NCBI GenBank assembly: GCA_022562855.1
Contig: JADFON010000008.1
Span: 1 to 14,835 of the forward strand
Length of the DNA: 14,835 bases
Direction of reading: 5' to 3'
From: Candidatus Zhuqueibacterota bacterium
Lineage (GTDB): Bacteria; SM23-31
Shown: positions 3,413-13,500 of the stretch, one piece after another
How the letters are laid out: every line of letters starts with the position of its first letter
How positions within the stretch are numbered: position 1 is the stretch's first letter
Made by a program: the position numbers and the translations under genes
The notes under the pieces: generated by a model
Databases searched by the model: none
What the model saw: the letters and a program-made list of their open reading frames with translations, nothing else
What the model was told of the DNA's origin: nothing

Positions 3413-4834
3413 ATGATGTCGTTAAAAGAATGCATTAATTCTGTCCGAAACGGGCAAAAATCATGTGAAGAGCTTACATCTCAGACCCTTAAACGAATCC
3501 GTAGTGAGGACTCTTATAATATTTTTTTAGAGGTATACGATACCGAAAGTTTAGAACAAGCGCGGGAAGTAGACAAACGGATAAAAAGCGGGAATGCCGG
3601 GGAATTAGCGGGATGTGTAATAGGTGTGAAGGACATCATCTGCCTCGCCGGCAAAAAGGTAACGTGCGGTTCGCACATTCTCGAAAACTACGTATCTCCT
3701 TATACTGCAACGGCAATTGAAAAACTTGAAGCTGCCGATGCTGTGGTTGTGGGCAAAACGAATATGGATGAATTCGCAATGGGTTCCACAAACGAAAATT
3801 CCTATTTCGGACCCGTCCTCGATCCTGTTGATAAAGAATTGGTCCCGGGGGGTTCAAGCGGGGGATCTGCGGCTGCTGTTGCAGCGAAACTTGTACCGGT
3901 AACACTTGGCTCCGATACCGGCGGCTCGATACGCCAGCCTGCTGCATTTTGCGGAATTACCGGCATAAAACCGACTTACGGACGGGTATCGCGGTTCGGA
4001 CTTGTTGCCTTTGCATCGTCTTTAGACCAGATAGGACCAATGGGGCAAAATGTAGAAGACGTTGCAACTATCCTTAAAGTCATTTCCGGTTATGATAAGC
4101 GGGATTCCACTTCAGTCAATGTTGAAGTGCCGGATTTCCAGCTTGAGTTGAGCAGTCCCATAAAGAAAGACTCCATTCGAATCGGGTATCTCTCCGATAT
4201 GTACGGCGAAGGACTCGATGAGGAGATTAAAAAATCAATAATGGAAACTATTGACAAACTGAAAACCGATGGGTTTACTGTAGGAGAGGTCAAACTACCT
4301 CACATGTCATATGCGATTTCGGTCTATTACATAATCGCCAATGCTGAGGCGTCGTCCAATCTCGCCCGTTATGACGGAGCTCGATATGGGCATCGAGCCG
4401 AAGGCGCAGGCGACCTCAAGGGAATGTATCTTGCGAGCAGAAACAGCGGATTTGGCGAAGAGGTAATGCGGCGAATTATATTGGGTACGTACGTTCTAAG
4501 CGCAGGATATTACGACGCCTACTATCGAAAAGCACAAAAAGTCCGCAGGCTTATCTATGACGATTTCAAAAACGCCTTTCAGGATTATGATGTTCTGATC
4601 ACTCCGACAACCCCGACTCCGCCATACAAAATCGGAGAAAAGATCGATGATCCTTTGGCGATGTATCTTGGCGATATATTTACTATCCCTGTCAACCTTG
4701 CAGGTCTTCCGGGGCTTTCTATTCCCTGTGGAAAAACCAAAGCCGGGTTGCCTATCGGATTACAGATTATTGGAAAACACTTCGATGAGTCATCGATATT
4801 GAAGACCGGTCATTATATAGAACAAAACTATTAA
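3413..4834 (+). CDS. gatA: Aspartyl/glutamyl-tRNA amidotransferase subunit A
   Basis: GatA is the glutaminase subunit of GatCAB: it releases ammonia from glutamine (or asparagine) for conversion of Glu-tRNA(Gln) and Asp-tRNA(Asn) to the correct amides. The amidase-signature Ser-cisSer-Lys triad is complete: K73 (GVKD), S148 (GGSSGGS) and S172 (TGGSIRQPAAF), with the same spacing as known GatA proteins. The following GIKPTYGRVSRFGLVAFASSLDQIGP block is typical. The 473 residues are slightly below the usual ~485, mostly at the C-terminus. ATG 3413 is followed by a second in-frame ATG; no ribosome binding site is visible. gatB follows after 21 bp. No gatC is present in the window, so that subunit must be encoded elsewhere. 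Confidence 0.97.
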   Translation: MMSLKECINSVRNGQKSCEELTSQTLKRIRSEDSYNIFLEVYDTESLEQAREVDKRIKSGNAGELAGCVIGVKDIICLAGKKVTCGSHILENYVSPYTATAIEKLEAADAVVVGKTNMDEFAMGSTNENSYFGPVLDPVDKELVPGGSSGGSAAAVAAKLVPVTLGSDTGGSIRQPAAFCGITGIKPTYGRVSRFGLVAFASSLDQIGPMGQNVEDVATILKVISGYDKRDSTSVNVEVPDFQLELSSPIKKDSIRIGYLSDMYGEGLDEEIKKSIMETIDKLKTDGFTVGEVKLPHMSYAISVYYIIANAEASSNLARYDGARYGHRAEGAGDLKGMYLASRNSGFGEEVMRRIILGTYVLSAGYYDAYYRKAQKVRRLIYDDFKNAFQDYDVLITPTTPTPPYKIGEKIDDPLAMYLGDIFTIPVNLAGLPGLSIPCGKTKAGLPIGLQIIGKHFDESSILKTGHYIEQNY

Positions 4835-4855: not shown

Positions 4856-6304
4856 ATGAAATTCATACCGACTATCGGGCTTGAAGTCCATGTACAGTTA
4901 AAAACCGAATCGAAGATTTTTTGTACCTGCGCTAATAGTTACGGCAAGGCGCAGAATTCTGTTGTATGTCCCGTATGTCTTGGAATGCCCGGTGTACTTC
5001 CCGTTTTGAATAAGAAAGTTGTCGATCTCGCAATTAAAACCGCAGTAGCTCTTCAATGTACCGTGTACCCGCTGTCTATTTTTGCCAGGAAGAACTATTT
5101 TTATCCCGATCTCCCGAAAGGATACCAAATATCTCAATTCGAAGAACCGCTTGCTTTAAACGGTAAGCTTGATATCCCGGTTAATGGGTCGTGGAAAACT
5201 ATCGGTGTTACCCGAATTCACCTTGAAGAAGATGCCGGAAAATCGGTGCACCCCGCAGGGAAAGAAAAATTAACGGAAAGCCGGATCGACGTAAACAGGT
5301 GCGGAATTCCCCTGATTGAAATTGTATCGGAACCCGATATAGACTCTCCGGAGGAAGCGTACCTATATCTTACCCGTTTGAAACAGCTCCTTCTTTATCT
5401 TGAAGTCAGCGATTGCAATATGGAAGAAGGGAGCCTGCGGTGCGACGCAAACGTTTCTGTACGTCCCGAAACAACCGATAAACTTGGAGTAAAAACCGAA
5501 TTAAAGAACCTCAATTCATTCCGATACGTGGAAAAAGCGTTAAAATTTGAGATTAACCGCCAGACCCGCATGGCTGAAAATGGCGAGGAAATCCATCAAC
5601 AAACGCTATCCTGGGATGCAGCGAAAGATACGGCGGTTCTAATGAGAACAAAAGAAGGGTCCGACGATTACCGGTATTTCCCGGAACCCGACCTGATTCC
5701 GCTTGTCATCGATAATCTCTGGATAAAGGAAATCGAAAAAACCATTCCCGAACTCCCCAGGGAGAAAAAAGAACGATTGATAAAACAATATGGTATTTCG
5801 GAACAAAATGCCGAAGTACTTACAACGACGCGCGAACTCGCAGATTATTTTGAAGATACTGCGAAATCCGGTAAAGATTACAAAAAAACTTCAAATTGGA
5901 TTCTCAGCGAAGTTCTTATGGTGCTCAAAGAGCGGAAGATTACGATCGGCGAATTTTCTGTTCCGCCAAAAGATATTGCAGAACTGATCGATCTAATCGG
6001 ATCGGGGGCTATAAGCGGAAAGATCGCAAAAGATGTATTTGTAGAGATGGTAGATTCCGGTGGTCCGCCTTCAGAAATCGTCAAGAATAAAGGTCTTGAG
6101 CAGGTTTCAGACACAGGGTCAATTGATAAAGTTATAGAGTCTATTCTTGTTGAACATCAGAAAGAAGTCAAGGAGTATCTTGGCGGAAAAGAGCGGCTTT
6201 ATGGGTTTTTTGTAGGACAAGTTATGAAGGCAACCCAGGGTAAAGCGAATCCCGAAATAGTCAACCGGATACTAAAAGATAAATTATCCCGGTTACCGGG
6301 ATAA
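4856..6304 (+). CDS. gatB: Aspartyl/glutamyl-tRNA amidotransferase subunit B
   Basis: GatB binds misacylated tRNA, phosphorylates the side chain and transfers ammonia delivered by GatA. At 482 residues it is full length. The N-terminal catalytic domain opens with IGLEVHVQL and carries four cysteines, C23, C25, C38 and C41 (FCTC and CPVCLGMPG), the zinc-binding set of the family. ARKNYFYPDLPKGYQISQFEEP and GSLRCDANVSVRP are further signatures, and the C-terminal third (about 330-480) is the helical GatB/YqeY tRNA-binding region. Start ATG 4856 has only an A/T-rich leader. The 3' end is unusual: a perfect 9-bp hairpin ends on the stop codon. With gatA it implies that the organism forms Gln-tRNA and/or Asn-tRNA indirectly. 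Confidence 0.97.
   Translation: MKFIPTIGLEVHVQLKTESKIFCTCANSYGKAQNSVVCPVCLGMPGVLPVLNKKVVDLAIKTAVALQCTVYPLSIFARKNYFYPDLPKGYQISQFEEPLALNGKLDIPVNGSWKTIGVTRIHLEEDAGKSVHPAGKEKLTESRIDVNRCGIPLIEIVSEPDIDSPEEAYLYLTRLKQLLLYLEVSDCNMEEGSLRCDANVSVRPETTDKLGVKTELKNLNSFRYVEKALKFEINRQTRMAENGEEIHQQTLSWDAAKDTAVLMRTKEGSDDYRYFPEPDLIPLVIDNLWIKEIEKTIPELPREKKERLIKQYGISEQNAEVLTTTRELADYFEDTAKSGKDYKKTSNWILSEVLMVLKERKITIGEFSVPPKDIAELIDLIGSGAISGKIAKDVFVEMVDSGGPPSEIVKNKGLEQVSDTGSIDKVIESILVEHQKEVKEYLGGKERLYGFFVGQVMKATQGKANPEIVNRILKDKLSRLPG
6284..6304 (+). terminator. Perfect hairpin ending on the gatB stop codon
   Basis: TTATCCCGG (6284-6292) and CCGGGATAA (6296-6304) pair without mismatch around TTA, and the last three bases are the gatB stop TAA. 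No T-tract follows, so it is not a classical intrinsic terminator; it may protect the mRNA 3' end, cause pausing, or be a palindromic repeat that has come to supply the C-terminal codons. Confidence 0.45.
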
Positions 6305-6434: not shown

Positions 6435-7607
6435 ATGAAATTTCTGACTGAAATAGCCTGCACAAAGTGCGATAAAACCTATTCCGACGAGCAAACGCTT
6501 TTTTTGTGTTCTTGCGGTGCGCCTTTATTTGCGCATTACGACCTTGAAAAAGTGAAAGCCAATCTTACACGTGAAGAGATTAAAAACCGGCCCGAAGACA
6601 TGTGGCGATACAAGGAGTTGCTGCCTATCACCGACCCGGAAAATATCCTTAATCTTGGAGAGGGATTTACTCCACTGGTATATTCAAAGTCTCTTGGCGC
6701 TTTAATCGGGCTTGAAAATCTCTATCTAAAGGACGAATCTCTCAATCCGACCGGTTCGTTCAAAGCCCGCGGTATGGCGGTTGCATTATCGAAGGCAAAA
6801 GAGCTCGGTAAAACCAAAATCTGCCTGCCGACAGCCGGCAATGCCGGGGGAGCTGCGGCGGCTTATGGGGCAAAAGGCGGTATGGAAGTTCTTATCGCTA
6901 TGCCTCAGACCACACCGGATACTTTTAAAGCTGAAGCGATTGCGCTGGGAGCACGAACACTCTTCGTAGAAGGCAGTATTGTGGATGCAGGCGCTCATCT
7001 GGCAACGCAAACGGATGACACCTGGTACAACGTATCCACACTAAAAGAACCGTACCGCGTCGAAGGCAAGAAAACCATGGGAATAGAGATTGCCGAGCAG
7101 ATGGATTGGACCTTACCGGATGTAGTAATTTATCCAACCGGAGGCGGCACAGGTTTAATAGGAATGTGGAAAGTGTTTGATGAACTCGAAGAGCTTGGAT
7201 GGATATCATCACAGAGACCGCGAATGGTATCGGTTCAGGCAGAGGGCTGTGCTCCGATAATCAAAGCGTTTAAGGACGGTTCTACGTCTGCAGAGGAATG
7301 GATAAATCCCCAAACAGTTGCTGCAGGACTGCGTGTCCCAAAGGCAGTAGGTGATTTTCTCATGCTGAAAGCGCTAAGAGAGAGCGGCGGTACCGCGGTT
7401 GATGTAACCGACGAGGAGCTTATCCAGGGAGTAAAACTCATCGGTAAACATACCGGAATATTTTCTGCGCCCGAAGGCGGTGCAGCCTTCATAGCTGCTA
7501 AGAAGTTACGCGAATCGGGATTTATCAAGGAAAAGGAAAAAGTGGTGATTTTTATTACAGGAAGCGGTCTCAAATACACCGATACATTGATATCTCTCCT
7601 GGAATAG
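6435..7607 (+). CDS. thrC: Threonine synthase, PLP-dependent, with N-terminal zinc ribbon
   Basis: The enzyme converts O-phospho-L-homoserine to L-threonine. The 390 residues belong to the PLP fold-type II family. K110 in NPTGSFKARG is the residue that binds PLP, the glycine-rich loop PTGGGTGLIGMWK holds the cofactor phosphate, and TGSGLKYTD near the end is typical of ThrC. Before the catalytic domain is a small zinc-ribbon-like segment with C9, C12, C25 and C27 (CTKC...CSC), as in many threonine synthases of this class. The start is ATG 6435 with a weak GGGGA at 6426-6430. It lies 130 bp after gatB; no thrA or thrB is nearby. A related cysteate synthase cannot be fully excluded but is less likely. 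Confidence 0.92.
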   Translation: MKFLTEIACTKCDKTYSDEQTLFLCSCGAPLFAHYDLEKVKANLTREEIKNRPEDMWRYKELLPITDPENILNLGEGFTPLVYSKSLGALIGLENLYLKDESLNPTGSFKARGMAVALSKAKELGKTKICLPTAGNAGGAAAAYGAKGGMEVLIAMPQTTPDTFKAEAIALGARTLFVEGSIVDAGAHLATQTDDTWYNVSTLKEPYRVEGKKTMGIEIAEQMDWTLPDVVIYPTGGGTGLIGMWKVFDELEELGWISSQRPRMVSVQAEGCAPIIKAFKDGSTSAEEWINPQTVAAGLRVPKAVGDFLMLKALRESGGTAVDVTDEELIQGVKLIGKHTGIFSAPEGGAAFIAAKKLRESGFIKEKEKVVIFITGSGLKYTDTLISLLE

Positions 7608-7705: not shown

Positions 7706-9268
7706 ATGCCGGACTCTAAACAAAAACAACCTCAAAAAGATCCTCAACAAGGGGCTCCAAAGTCCAATATCATCCAGGCACGGGATTTTAAAAAAGCCGG
7801 CGATAATGAACAGGCGAAAAAATTTGCGAAAAAAGAAGCCGACATCCTTACAAAAGCCGGCAGGTTTCACGATGTCATCGTGTTATGCCAGGAGTTCAAC
7901 CTTCCTAAGGATGTGCGTGACGGCGCTGCCACGGGTTTATTTTCACTCAAAGAAGCAGACAATAAATTCTCCGAAGCCCTCAAGATTATCGAAAAATACC
8001 AGCTTCCCGCAACGCTTGGTTATCCGATTGCAATCAGGCTATTCAAGCAAAGTTTGAACGATGGGAATATGCTCGAAGCCTCACAGTTGAATAAGTCATT
8101 TAAACTCAAAAAAGAGGATTATCTCGAGGATATTCTCGTTTTTGTCAAGAGACAGATTTTTTTGAATAATCTTGATAACGCTCTTGCCCTTAAAAATGAA
8201 TATAGATTAACACCCGACGATCTTTTTGAACCGCTTATCGAAAGCTTTGAGCATTTGATGAAAAACAAGAAAACTGAAAATGCACGGCGGTTGATAAGTG
8301 AATTCGGACTAAAAAAGGAATCGCTTTCAGAAGTTGTTCACAAAATCTATAATCAATATATTACAGATGCAACTTATGAAGATGCAGCTATCCTTGCCGT
8401 GGATTACAAACTTGACATAGAACTGATTACAGAAGCCGCTTATCTTGCTTTTTCCTTGAAAATAAAGCAAAAGAGGTTCCAACCGGCACAGGAAATCGGG
8501 AAAAAATTCAATATCCCGGAAGATAGAATAGACGAAAAAATAACCTTTGAATTTATAGACAATGTTAATCATGGCAGAATGGAGGAAGCCGGCGATTTAA
8601 GACGAATTTTTAAATTATCAGAAGTTGTAACCAATCCTATCGTTGTACCGATTATTATCTCAAAGTTAAAGACAAGAAATATTGACAGGGCGGTGGAATT
8701 GTTTAAAGTCTTTAGCGTCTCTGCGGAAGAAATTATGGCTCCCGCGCTTGAGCTTTGTGAATTTCATCTAAAGCGTGAGAGTATGAAGTGGGCAAAGAGT
8801 ATTATTGAGGAATTTCATATAGCTCCTGAACATTATAACCCTGTGGTATTACGTACTTTTACTGCAAAAATCAAAACGGGTAAATTAGAAACCGCGAAAC
8901 GTTTAATGGGCGACTTTAATCTGAATCCGGGTGAAATTGCTCCCGCAGTGAATGAAGTGTATCAAGAGTTTATTCAAAAAAGGTTATTTGAAAGGGCGCT
9001 TTATTTTGGAAAAGATTTTAAAGTGAACCAGGATTCACTGAAAAAAGTTGCCTGGGAGTTGTTTACGTCAAAAATGGAAAAAAATAACTTTGTTAAAGCC
9101 AAGGAACTCTCCAGACAATTCAAGCTTTCTTCCGACAAGGTAAAGGAGAAGGTGAAAACCATATTGGAAGAATTGAAAAACAAGAAAAGATATCAGCAAA
9201 TAGATAACTTACGATTACATTTCAAAATTGAGAAAAAAGGACTGCTTTCGAAGTTTTTCGGCAAGTAA
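7706..9268 (+). CDS. Alpha-helical repeat (solenoid) protein, 14 units of exactly 34 residues
   Basis: I do not recognise this gene by name. It encodes 520 residues without a signal peptide or membrane helix, so it is probably cytoplasmic. After a polar N-terminus rich in K, Q and P (1-20), nearly the whole protein is a tandem repeat. An aromatic residue followed two positions later by L, I or V occurs at 64, 98, 132, 166, 200, 234, 268, 302, 336, 370, 404, 438, 472 and 506, exactly every 34 residues. Ala lies seven residues before the aromatic in 12 of 14 units and a large hydrophobic residue (Leu or Ile, once Phe) four before it. The 34-residue period is that of TPR, but A-x2-L-x3-F-x-L is not the canonical TPR pattern. 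The last residues are basic (LLSKFFGK). A scaffold or RNA/protein-binding role is inference. No ribosome binding site is visible; the gene converges on the next one. Confidence 0.85.
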   Translation: MPDSKQKQPQKDPQQGAPKSNIIQARDFKKAGDNEQAKKFAKKEADILTKAGRFHDVIVLCQEFNLPKDVRDGAATGLFSLKEADNKFSEALKIIEKYQLPATLGYPIAIRLFKQSLNDGNMLEASQLNKSFKLKKEDYLEDILVFVKRQIFLNNLDNALALKNEYRLTPDDLFEPLIESFEHLMKNKKTENARRLISEFGLKKESLSEVVHKIYNQYITDATYEDAAILAVDYKLDIELITEAAYLAFSLKIKQKRFQPAQEIGKKFNIPEDRIDEKITFEFIDNVNHGRMEEAGDLRRIFKLSEVVTNPIVVPIIISKLKTRNIDRAVELFKVFSVSAEEIMAPALELCEFHLKRESMKWAKSIIEEFHIAPEHYNPVVLRTFTAKIKTGKLETAKRLMGDFNLNPGEIAPAVNEVYQEFIQKRLFERALYFGKDFKVNQDSLKKVAWELFTSKMEKNNFVKAKELSRQFKLSSDKVKEKVKTILEELKNKKRYQQIDNLRLHFKIEKKGLLSKFFGK

Positions 9269-9279
9269 ATATCAGAATA

Positions 9280-10437
9280 TCAGGGGGTTCTCCAGACAAA
9301 TTTCCACGTGCCTCTTGCGTTGCTTTCGCTGCCGATCTCCTCAAGAAATATAAGCTCCAGGTAGTTTGTTCCGGGCGCAATTACCGGTTTATTAGACCAT
9401 TGGGCAGGAAATAGAAGTTGGTAATAGGTATTATAAACTTGTGATATTTCTTCCGAAAATCTACCTCTTCCGCCGCCGGAGCCTCGACCTCTTCCCATGC
9501 CAAACAATCCTTGCCTGCCCTGCTGTGAGTTTCTTGCTGAAAGAGGCGTACTAAGAAAACTTGGGAGTCTGCTTGAAATCAATAAATTTCTTTCCTTAAA
9601 CCACTCTTCGTCTTGTTCGATTATTCTTCTCGGTTCAATTTCACTTCCGTCCGGGAGCCGTATAAACGGAATCCAGTTGTTGATATCGCTGTAATTTGGA
9701 TGCAGCCGGGAAGAGACATGCACCCGTATTTCAACCACCGATTCCGGTTCGACGTCTGATGGAAGGGAATTCGGTTTGTCCTTTTCCAGGTCGCGAAGCG
9801 ATTTATCCATAAGTGTCGCCTGAATACTGATCGGGAAAGAATTTCTGCCTCTCTGTGAAATCGATCCGGATGTATTTCCTGTATAAAATGAGTACATCGG
9901 TAGACCAAAATATACCGTCCACAATTCAAACGGACTTTGAAGACGCGAACCTCGTTGAACCTGCGAAGATCTCCCGGGTGAAACTGTAGTTTCATAGGAA
10001 ATTTTGATTGCGGAATTGAAATTCTTTAAGACGTATTCTCGTGTTTCATTATAATAATAGATAAGCTCAGTACGTCTCCAGGAAAAACGCTGGGAATCGT
10101 CAAGTTGTTCGTCTATTTCAATCATAACCGGATGCAATTGCTCAAGAAATTCTGTTTTCAATTCGAGTAAATCTTCACGCGAATATCTTCTCTTATCGGA
10201 TTGATCCAGACCAGTCTCGATAGACTTGTTATAGCTCTCGACAATTTCGCTCGCTTTTGTCAATAACGGTCTCACTTCCGGTTGATTTTCATCCGTTATC
10301 TCCAGAAAATCAAGATAGTTTTCGACATTGATATGGATCTGCTGCTCTTCGCATCCTGAAAGCAAAACTGCTGTAAACAGAATTATGAACATTACCGGCG
10401 TCTTTAATTTAAACTGATTATGTGCTCTTTGTTTCAT
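9280..10437 (-). CDS. Predicted lipoprotein with an Arg/Gly-rich segment, unknown function
   Basis: A 385-residue protein that I do not recognise. Its N-terminus is a lipoprotein signal: basic residues, a hydrophobic helix (about 14-26) and the lipobox LLSGC with C29 as the predicted lipidated Cys. E30 follows, so no Asp retention signal is seen and outer-membrane sorting is plausible. Residues 30-145 look helical and charged; about 165-300 and 330-385 look beta-rich with several aromatic residues. Between them lies an unusual segment (about 304-327) of R, G, Q and F ending in repeated RG pairs, probably disordered. The stop is 11 bp from the stop of the convergent solenoid gene. No Shine-Dalgarno precedes the ATG. 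The 435-bp gap upstream must hold its promoter. Confidence 0.8.
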   Translation of the reverse strand: MKQRAHNQFKLKTPVMFIILFTAVLLSGCEEQQIHINVENYLDFLEITDENQPEVRPLLTKASEIVESYNKSIETGLDQSDKRRYSREDLLELKTEFLEQLHPVMIEIDEQLDDSQRFSWRRTELIYYYNETREYVLKNFNSAIKISYETTVSPGRSSQVQRGSRLQSPFELWTVYFGLPMYSFYTGNTSGSISQRGRNSFPISIQATLMDKSLRDLEKDKPNSLPSDVEPESVVEIRVHVSSRLHPNYSDINNWIPFIRLPDGSEIEPRRIIEQDEEWFKERNLLISSRLPSFLSTPLSARNSQQGRQGLFGMGRGRGSGGGRGRFSEEISQVYNTYYQLLFPAQWSNKPVIAPGTNYLELIFLEEIGSESNARGTWKFVWRTP

Positions 10438-10872: not shown

Positions 10873-12030
10873 TTACTTTGCAGAGTTTACTAATTCAAGC
10901 AGTTCTTTGGAAACGTCGGTATGCACCGACATCTTTACAAAGCCGACCTTGATTTGTTTCTTTTTCTGTTCTGCGGCTTTTTCAGCAATGAGAGATATCC
11001 ACTTTATACATTGTGGTGTAAAATACTCGCTTCGGATCTTTTTATCACTTAAGTCACGGGTTAATATCCTGTTCAAAGAGCGCAAGGTCTGTTCGAACTT
11101 GGGATTCAAACAGAGTTGGTACAGGTATTTCGTGCCCGAGCTTTTCTCTTTTTCATTCATCAGACGAACTGTTTCACCGATAGATTGTTCCGCAGGACCT
11201 CGAAATAAAATGTCTTTTCCCCCGGAATGCTCCTTTATCAAATTAATGAGAGGGACTATCGTTCTCTTTTCGCCAATAGTGCGCATTGTCCTGATCACCT
11301 GATGCAATATATTTTTATCTTTCAGCGCCGCGATCATGGCGTTTACTGCAAAATAGCATTGCGGATTGTTTGCCAATTTGTCGATAGCGATCTGTCGTTT
11401 CGTAATCGAAGTATCTCCCATTTGTTTGATCAATTCACATAGCTCACCATTATCCTGCCCCCCCTCTGAAGATATCTTAACGACAAGCGCAAACAGTTCA
11501 AAAGCAGTCTGATATGCGCCTGTATGTTTTGAATGTTCTTCTTCAGTTGATTTTTGCTGCTCTTCACGTTTTTTATCCATTTCCGCCATTGTTTTTTCAT
11601 GTTCTTGTATTTCTTGACCAATTTCTTTCAAGCCGATTTTTTCAACCTGTCCTTCCTTGTTCTTCTCATCTTTTGCTGCTTTGTCACGCGCTTCTTTTCG
11701 TTTACGTTCGAGAAACTGCTCACTTTTGCTCAGTTTTTTCTGCTTTTCAGGCGCTCTCTGTGGACCGCCCCTGAAGCTTCCCTGTCTGCCTTTTGCCAAT
11801 TTTGCCGAAAGATATTTTACCAATTCATTTGCATAGTATAGAACAATCTTCTTTTTGTCTCCCGGCTTCCCAAGATTCGTAATCACCGTCTCAAGATCTT
11901 CAAGAGTGATGCGCATCTCGTAAATCAATTGTAATGAGTTGTCGATTGGGTCTGACCGTGTAAAGATAATATCTTCGGTATCTGCATCTTTTACCAGCGC
12001 TTCAGAAATTGGCTCTACAATATCCTTCAT
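10873..12030 (-). CDS. Coiled-coil and HEAT-like helical protein, unknown function
   Basis: A 385-residue protein without signal peptide or membrane segment, not recognised. The first 90 residues look helical and acidic. Residues about 83-95 are rich in R, G and P, then about 96-168 are extremely charged (K, E, R, D, Q with few hydrophobics), indicating a long single helix or coiled coil. Residues about 170-345 are helical with a pattern like HEAT/Armadillo repeats: AIDKLANNPQCYFAVNAMIAALKD and TMRTIGEKRTIVPLINLIKE each read as helix pairs in which a short helix is followed by one of the form VxxLIxLI. The start is ATG 12030 (minus), with AAGGGAG at 12046-12040 as a good ribosome binding site. 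A scaffold or regulatory adaptor is possible but unproven. Confidence 0.8.
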   Translation of the reverse strand: MKDIVEPISEALVKDADTEDIIFTRSDPIDNSLQLIYEMRITLEDLETVITNLGKPGDKKKIVLYYANELVKYLSAKLAKGRQGSFRGGPQRAPEKQKKLSKSEQFLERKRKEARDKAAKDEKNKEGQVEKIGLKEIGQEIQEHEKTMAEMDKKREEQQKSTEEEHSKHTGAYQTAFELFALVVKISSEGGQDNGELCELIKQMGDTSITKRQIAIDKLANNPQCYFAVNAMIAALKDKNILHQVIRTMRTIGEKRTIVPLINLIKEHSGGKDILFRGPAEQSIGETVRLMNEKEKSSGTKYLYQLCLNPKFEQTLRSLNRILTRDLSDKKIRSEYFTPQCIKWISLIAEKAAEQKKKQIKVGFVKMSVHTDVSKELLELVNSAK

Positions 12031-12271: not shown

Positions 12272-12302
12272 TTGACATTTTTTAATAATTTGACGTTATT
12301 AT
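12272..12302 (+). promoter_or_regulatory. Possible sigma70-like promoter for the lipoprotein pair
   Basis: A perfect TTGACA lies at 12272-12277 and TATTAT (5 of 6) at 12297-12302, spaced by 19 bp, slightly longer than ideal. Transcription would begin about 30 nt before ATG 12341. The TTG of this -35 box also opens the longest reading frame here, which argues against using it as the translation start. Confidence 0.4.
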
Positions 12303-12340
12303 CTATAGTAAAATGTATGCCAATTAATACCCTGTTTACG

Positions 12341-12964
12341 ATGAAGACTTTGCATCTGCTGATAAAACATTTTCTCAGGACTACTCCCGTTTTCGGAGTT
12401 ATTGTATCGGTGATTTTTTTACTCGTTACCTGCCAAAATCCGTTTTCTACAAGGGAGCCCGAACTTCCTTCGGGTGAACAAACTTTGTGGATCCAGCCGA
12501 TTGCTCCGGAAATTGTCTTAATCAATTTACAATCAGCGATACAAGAAAGGAATATTGAAAACTACATCCGGTGTTTTGGGCTGGTTGAGGATGTTAGAAA
12601 AAATTTTACCTTTGTACCGGAAATCAGTGTGGCAAACAACTTCCAGGGTATATTTTTAAACTGGGGGATCATTGAAGAACGAAATTACATGAACCATCTA
12701 TTCGGGCTTACTCCCGCAGACTCTGTGAGTAATCTGCGGTTAACGGACATTACCGAAATTCAATTTGGAGATTCGGTTAGTACGACAAAAGAGTACGACC
12801 TGTTTATTGCTCACACTAATCCGTCTGCTCCTGTAATCGTGAATGGACGAATGGTCCTTAATCTTCGTAAAGGCTCCGATGCTCTCTGGTTTATTTCATC
12901 ATGGTCAGATTTTAAGACCGGAAATTCTCCGGTTTGGACATTGTTAAAGGCAGAATTTAAATAA
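12341..12964 (+). CDS. Small lipoprotein with VTCQNPF lipobox, NTF2-like pattern (first of pair)
   Basis: A 207-residue protein when started at ATG 12341; the frame is open further upstream (TTG 12272, ATG 12317), but 12341 gives a normal signal peptide: basic start, a hydrophobic stretch to residue 28, then V29-T30-C31-Q-N-P-F. Thr before the Cys is unusual for a lipobox. The mature part begins with a Pro/Glu/Ser-rich linker, then APEIVLINLQSAI, FLNWG, and near the end LWFISSWSDF. A helix that opens with P-E-x-V-L-x-N followed by strands and a final W-x-I-x-x-W strand is reminiscent of NTF2-like (SnoaL/DUF4440) folds. The second gene shares the same landmarks. Its stop overlaps the next start by 1 nt. 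Function unknown; no ribosome binding site is visible. Confidence 0.8.
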   Translation: MKTLHLLIKHFLRTTPVFGVIVSVIFLLVTCQNPFSTREPELPSGEQTLWIQPIAPEIVLINLQSAIQERNIENYIRCFGLVEDVRKNFTFVPEISVANNFQGIFLNWGIIEERNYMNHLFGLTPADSVSNLRLTDITEIQFGDSVSTTKEYDLFIAHTNPSAPVIVNGRMVLNLRKGSDALWFISSWSDFKTGNSPVWTLLKAEFK

Positions 12965-13500
12965 TGAATCGAGCTTTAACCGCATACCGGCTAAAAGGAG
13001 CGTTAGTCTCTTTTGCTCTTCTTAACCTTATTGTATTGTGGGTTACCTGTTTTAATCCGTTTGCTCCAAAACTTGGTGAAATCTCCTCCAATCTTAATGT
13101 GTTCCTGACCGCCCAGCAAACACCTGAGGAAGTGTTGTCGAATTTCCAATTCGCCTATACTCTCAAGGATTCACTTGTTTACAGGGATGTGTTGGATGAC
13201 GATTTTGTCTTTGTCTACCGGGACCTGGATAACGACGTTTTTCTATCCTGGGGTAAGGAAGAAGATGTAACGGCAACCGTAGGATTATTTAATAATTTTA
13301 CGGTTATAAACCTTGTATGGAATTCTACCAATTTTATCTCGTATTCACTTGACTCGACAACTGCCGAGATTTCAAAAGGATTTATTTTATCTCTCGGTCA
13401 TGAGATTCGGATTACCGGTGAAGCTCTTTTTAGTTTTAAAATGAATATCGAGAATAACATCTGGAAGATCACGAGATGGGTCGACAAATCAATTATTTAA
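12964..13500 (+). CDS. Small lipoprotein with VTCFNPF lipobox, NTF2-like pattern (second of pair)
   Basis: A 178-residue probable paralogue of the preceding protein. The signal peptide ends in LWVTC with C29, followed by FNPF, the same C-x-NPF arrangement. TPEEVLSNFQFAY matches APEIVLINLQSAI of its neighbour at P, E, V, L, N, Q and A; FLSWG matches FLNWG; IWKITRWVDK at the C-terminus matches LWFISSWSDF in W-x-I-x-x-W. The start ATG 12964 shares its A with the TAA stop of the first gene, so translation is probably coupled. The pair looks like a diverged tandem duplication and might form a heterodimer, as NTF2-like domains often dimerise; that is inference. pdxJ follows after 40 bp with its own ribosome binding site. 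Confidence 0.82.
   Translation: MNRALTAYRLKGALVSFALLNLIVLWVTCFNPFAPKLGEISSNLNVFLTAQQTPEEVLSNFQFAYTLKDSLVYRDVLDDDFVFVYRDLDNDVFLSWGKEEDVTATVGLFNNFTVINLVWNSTNFISYSLDSTTAEISKGFILSLGHEIRITGEALFSFKMNIENNIWKITRWVDKSII

Follow-up and report, generated by a model that had tools for sequence, protein, structure and literature searches.

Plant PPR proteins wrap single-stranded nucleic acid, and TAL effector repeats, which like the TPR are near 34 residues in length, consist of one short and one long helix. A bacterial precedent for a helical-repeat protein at membranes is the TPR protein Bklc, which binds to lipid vesicles and possesses an amphipathic helix (PMC5372463). Furthermore, the membrane-targeting sequence of E. 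coli MinD, KGFLKRLFGG, tethers proteins to the membrane when used as a fused tag (PMC5471200). Here we analysed a stretch of DNA of 14,835 nucleotides (the window) from a 2.5-Mb metagenome-assembled genome (G000) of Candidatus Zhuqueibacterota, which encodes a solenoid protein (Table 1). The protein belongs to a helical-repeat subfamily, defined by an unusually strict 34-residue period, that is not described in the family databases searched (Pfam and NCBIfam); likewise, no account of such a solenoid family with 34-residue units turned up in the literature collection searched.

Table 1. Coordinates of the solenoid gene, the parts of its product and the upstream genes in the window.
Feature	Position	Strand	Basis or remark
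Solenoid gene from ATG to stop codon (520 aa)	7706..9268	+	ORF; G002-G005 have orthologues with conserved gene neighbours
Charged N-terminal leader (residues 1-20), predicted to be disordered	7706..7765	+	Structure model; sequence
Fourteen 34-residue units, residues 31-506	7796..9223	+	Autocorrelation, alignment, structure model
Cationic amphipathic tail at the C-terminus (KKGLLSKFFGK, residues 510-520)	9233..9265	+	Resembles MinD membrane-targeting sequence
Threonine synthase (thrC), 98 bases upstream of solenoid gene	6435..7607	+	Neighbour also in G002, G003
gatB	4856..6304	+	Adjoins solenoid gene in G004, G005; two genes upstream in G000, G002
gatA	3413..4834	+	gatA-gatB-thrC-solenoid order conserved in G000 and G002

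The solenoid gene is real, as it has an orthologue with conserved neighbours in four other genera. These direct counterparts, in G002, G003, G004 and G005, share 41, 31, 26 and 27% identity with the window protein, respectively, and lie on the same strand as their neighbours, after thrC in the first two genomes and directly after gatB in the other two. The 14 units are kept in all orthologues, with one 35-residue step, caused by a single-residue insertion, in G004 and G005, and the pI is 9.1-9.5 in all five proteins. Downstream, on the opposite strand, the window encodes a lipoprotein-like 385-aa protein (9283-10437) that has no Pfam match above cut-off and a similarly placed protein in G002 (L070:3456-4532). 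It is followed by another 385-aa protein (10876-12030, minus strand) that weakly resembles HEAT repeats (HEAT_2 below cut-off, E=0.0069) and is possibly a second helical-repeat protein beside the solenoid gene. Its start is similar to that of a G002 protein (L070:2133-3284) encoded at the corresponding place in the gene order. Finally, two adjacent ORFs on the plus strand (12272-13500) have similar lipoprotein-like starts (VTCQNPF and VTCFNPF) and no family match above cut-off, and are possibly a tandem duplicate.

The initial annotation had described an exact 34-residue period starting at position 7895, which is indeed the first base of residue 64, the gene itself starting 63 codons earlier. 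An aromatic residue occurs at 64+34n in all 14 units (n=0-13; F, Y, F, Y, F, Y, then eight F), preceded at seven residues by V, then twelve A (residues 91 to 465), then I, and at four residues by L or I, once F, exactly as described. Fourteen in-phase aromatics compare with at most 9 in 20,000 composition-preserving shuffles, and the BLOSUM autocorrelation rises to z=12.3 at lag 34 and to z=10.5 at lag 68, all other lags remaining at z<=4. Two origins had been proposed for this strictness, namely selection on superhelix geometry or fairly recent repeat amplification followed by divergence. The latter is rejected: Tandem Repeats Finder detected no DNA-level tandem repeat in the window, and the units of the window protein share a mean identity of only 17.6% with one another, as compared to 40% between same-position units of this protein and its nearest orthologue (G002), with mutual best matches in 13 of 14 cases. 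Since the same-position units match best, the 14 units are older than the split of the genera, and the period, judged from these comparisons, is ancient. On the other hand, selection on superhelix geometry is plausible, because unit length is maintained throughout the family. Within the array, a lysine at unit position 18, the end of helix A, is invariant in every second unit (the 7th, 9th, 11th and 13th; K252, K320, K388 and K456 of the window protein) in five of five orthologues and is not conserved in the units between. This alternation amounts to a superperiod of two units within the C-terminal half, which may be due to chance, as 34 positions were tested.

The AlphaFold2 model of the window protein, built on a five-sequence alignment, predicts a regular alpha-solenoid, as had been anticipated, with a pLDDT of 90 and a pTM of 0.63. 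It comprises 29 regular helices and, at 513-518, a further weak one, and the helical array spans residues ~21 to 506; residues 1-17 of the leader are modelled at pLDDT under 50 and by eye are not signal-peptide-like. In each modelled unit, helix A (17 residues, positions 4-20) is followed by a three-residue turn, by helix B of 10-11 residues (24-33/34) and by a linker x-[LI]-P; the aromatic anchor is at unit position 34. The Foldseek matches listed in the PDB are all generic helical solenoids (E to 8.5e-8, TM <=0.28), and VIA aligned parts of the model with helical arrangements of common types (Z <=8.5). None of the Foldseek and VIA matches listed reproduces the full-length superhelix geometry, which by itself is no proof of newness.

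Two features overlooked in the initial annotation, a C-terminal tail resembling a membrane-targeting sequence and a family of paralogues, bear on the role of the protein. In nearly every complete family member, a short stretch in which F, W, L, I and K abound follows directly on the last unit. The tails of the five orthologues (KKGLLSKFFGK in the window, KTGWLSKLFGR, KKRLFSKILGR, KKGFFKKLFG in G004, and KKGFFSKLFG) are short cationic amphipathic motifs of the MinD type, and the tail is conserved across clades, in five of five orthologues and almost all complete paralogues. In 20 of 36 family C-termini, some of which belong to truncated ORFs, the final 14 residues contain the motif [hydrophobic]2-x-[KR]-[hydrophobic]2, as compared to 4 of 136 controls taken from other proteins of the same loci; the mean F+W count is 2.4 and 0.8, respectively. 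The orthologue tail is only ~9-11 residues long, is modelled at pLDDT under 50 and has a moderate hydrophobic moment (0.26-0.46). In the L067 and L075 paralogues the hydrophobic segment is internal and an acidic tail follows, so that a membrane helix suits it better than a C-terminal recognition tag.

Family members were found in all six genomes sampled from this small, uncultured phylum, with seven loci in G000 and twelve genes in G002, as counted by genome search in assemblies that are mostly incomplete and fragmented; a scan of genome contigs returned only two loci, both found before. Some paralogues consist of 9-14 units; others have a longer form with two arrays, for which an all-helical solenoid with a C-terminal helix at 538-551 is predicted. 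A tree of 33 members separates a clade with the window gene, a clade of ~390-residue proteins (9-10 units) and a clade of two-array proteins of 540-590 residues. Several subclades combine proteins from more than one family within the phylum, and some keep their neighbours (rhomboid, PilZ or rpsT). Multiplication of the solenoid family before the families of the phylum diverged is the best explanation for the tree and the conserved neighbours. In G002, two closely related two-array paralogues lie in tandem (L076:8699-12217), a pair that arose by later duplication in this lineage. Outside the phylum, among ~380 genomes, profile A1 gave one weak partial match and profile A2 none, and no relative was found in the viral contigs and plasmids searched. 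The single match, a 230-aa protein of G062 (L084:1510-2202, E=7e-11), has similar stretches ~68 residues apart and no matching array; it was not counted as a family member and is possibly a distant relative. The presence of the family in all six genomes and its own paralogue expansion suggest a basic cell-biological role not named by any annotation.

The genes found beside the paralogues help to weigh one possible role, that of a soluble adaptor or assembly factor for GatAB or ThrC whose tail would be a peptide docking on a protein partner. The solenoid gene does adjoin gatB or thrC, on the same strand, in five genera. However, tailed paralogues adjoin unrelated genes, encoding rhomboid (PF01694, L079 group) and PilZ (PF07238, L080/L072 group) proteins, both membrane-linked, RpsT, or a periplasmic-binding protein, and no operon partner common to all paralogues was found at the loci examined. 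Moreover, gatAB and thrC are widespread in phyla in which the solenoid family was not found, and we regard this role as quite improbable. In G004, one two-array paralogue adjoins a gene for an ArsA/GET3-type ATPase with a C-terminal HSP20-like domain (L080:5895-7052).

As to the relation with named repeat families, no Pfam or NCBIfam model scored above cut-off with the window protein or its orthologues, so that, as suspected, no named family claims this regular alpha-solenoid. Among the TPR models of Pfam, only TPR_ELP1 matched the window protein (15.4 bits, cut-off 28); weak matches to TPR_19 in two of five orthologues (best E=0.0049) and to TPR_1 (0.017) missed the curated cut-offs. The protein shares the tandem 34-residue helix-turn-helix organization of TPRs, with 14 units of two predicted helices each. 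Its key positions differ, as had been stated: tested against the signature W4-L7-G8-Y11-A20-F24-A27-P32, the best register matches on average 0.33 of the key positions, and with A20 aligned a small residue is found at position 8 in 0.01 and at position 27 in 0.01 of 70 units. These positions, small in TPRs, are aromatic in the solenoid family. Identity with canonical TPRs is therefore rejected, as the signature fails. A looser version, that this is a divergent but otherwise ordinary TPR protein whose tail is incidental, could draw on the weak TPR_19 matches and on HHalign, which with a three-unit profile gave 76.6% for a consensus TPR, 88.5% for a consensus PPR and 0.1% for a Sel1-like repeat, figures that are indicative only, being single-pair runs against typed consensus repeats. 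We nevertheless hold it to be rather unlikely in view of the bulky aromatics at TPR positions 8 and 27, the conservation of the tail across clades and the canonical TPR proteins that exist separately in genomes carrying the solenoid family.

The nearest sequence relatives are PPR proteins. The best phmmer match in the PDB is the PPR protein 4wn4 (E=4.8e-4), and the highest identity in the Foldseek list (19%) belongs to the designed PPR 5orm; a PDB search with profile A1 gave no match, and none of the five orthologues matched a PPR model of Pfam, even with matches accepted up to E=1. The core K-x-G-[NR]-[FYL]-x-x-A-[IL] aligns in the family, PPR and TPR, and gapped HHalign alignment to the consensus repeats makes helix B of the family three residues shorter and helix A longer. 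These similarities suggest that the family is a divergent branch of the TPR/PPR-like superfamily, related to it at a distance. Of the proposed "divergent or new alpha-solenoid class", the divergence thus stands, while the HHalign values for PPR and TPR speak against a wholly new class. The PPR relationship also raises the possibility of an RNA- or DNA-binding solenoid whose basic superhelix would wrap single-stranded nucleic acid; the lysine bias, and the pI near 9 of all five orthologues, would fit such binding. However, the unit is unlike that of PPRs, being 34 instead of 35 residues long, with helices of 17 and 10-11 residues that both deviate in length, and basicity is not a family trait, because the two-array paralogues, similar in type of fold and tail, have a pI of 5.0-8.5. 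As nucleic acid binding also gives the tail no role, we consider it unlikely, though worth keeping in mind.

We rather favour a cytoplasmic, membrane-peripheral scaffold or adaptor, a role we consider somewhat probable. The fourteen helical hairpins of equal length, predicted with high confidence, would stack into a long regular superhelix, and the cationic amphipathic tail, by its resemblance to that of MinD, would dock the protein on the inner membrane. Membrane-linked genes beside some paralogues and the internal hydrophobic segment of two paralogues also speak for this role. The solenoid surface, most conserved in its C-terminal half, could then bind a protein partner, and the paralogues, having the same kind of tail, would probably recruit different partners to the membrane. 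Against this role count the short tail with its low pLDDT and moderate hydrophobic moment, the basic character that would also fit nucleic acid binding, and the neighbours of the window gene, thrC and gatAB, which are housekeeping genes and suggest no membrane function. The combination of a solenoid and a MinD-like tail makes a clear prediction, namely membrane localisation. That such scaffolds assemble, throughout the phylum, into a layer resembling a coat or skeleton beneath the inner membrane seems to us a doubtful extension; if true, it would be a bacterial counterpart of solenoid membrane coats, arisen independently from PPR/TPR-like repeats. Apart from its function, the consensus unit, whose helix proportions are unlike those of TPR and PPR, could be used as a repeat building block in protein design.

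Compared with known systems, the family shares with TPRs the 34-residue unit, the conserved Ala in helix B and the superhelix, but differs by its aromatics at the sites matching TPR 8 and 27, by its helix lengths and by a Pro at unit position 3 instead of TPR position 32. With PPRs it has in common antiparallel helix pairs arranged in a superhelix, the segment K-x-G-x-[FLV]-x-x-A-[IL]-x-L and the best matches in both the PDB sequences and the consensus repeats; the differences are the unit and helix lengths given above and an aromatic residue where helix B of PPRs has Met. The PVC membrane-coat-like proteins are also membrane-associated alpha-helical repeat proteins of bacteria, an association only inferred for the present family, but they combine a beta-propeller with the helical repeats (PMC2799638), whereas the models of the window protein and of the two-array paralogue consist entirely of helices. 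Bklc, the bacterial kinesin light chain of Prosthecobacter, is likewise a bacterial helical-repeat protein with an amphipathic helix and binds vesicles (PMC5372463); unlike the solenoid protein, it is a canonical TPR protein, its amphipathic helix is N-terminal, and it is linked to bacterial tubulin, the btub genes of which were not seen in the window. Finally, the MinD sequence KGFLKRLFGG (PMC5471200) closely resembles KKGFFKKLFG of the G004 orthologue and KKGLLSKFFGK of the window protein. MinD is a ParA-type ATPase, whereas in the family it is a helical solenoid that bears the tail; there is no homology between the proteins, and the likeness of their tails is likely convergent.
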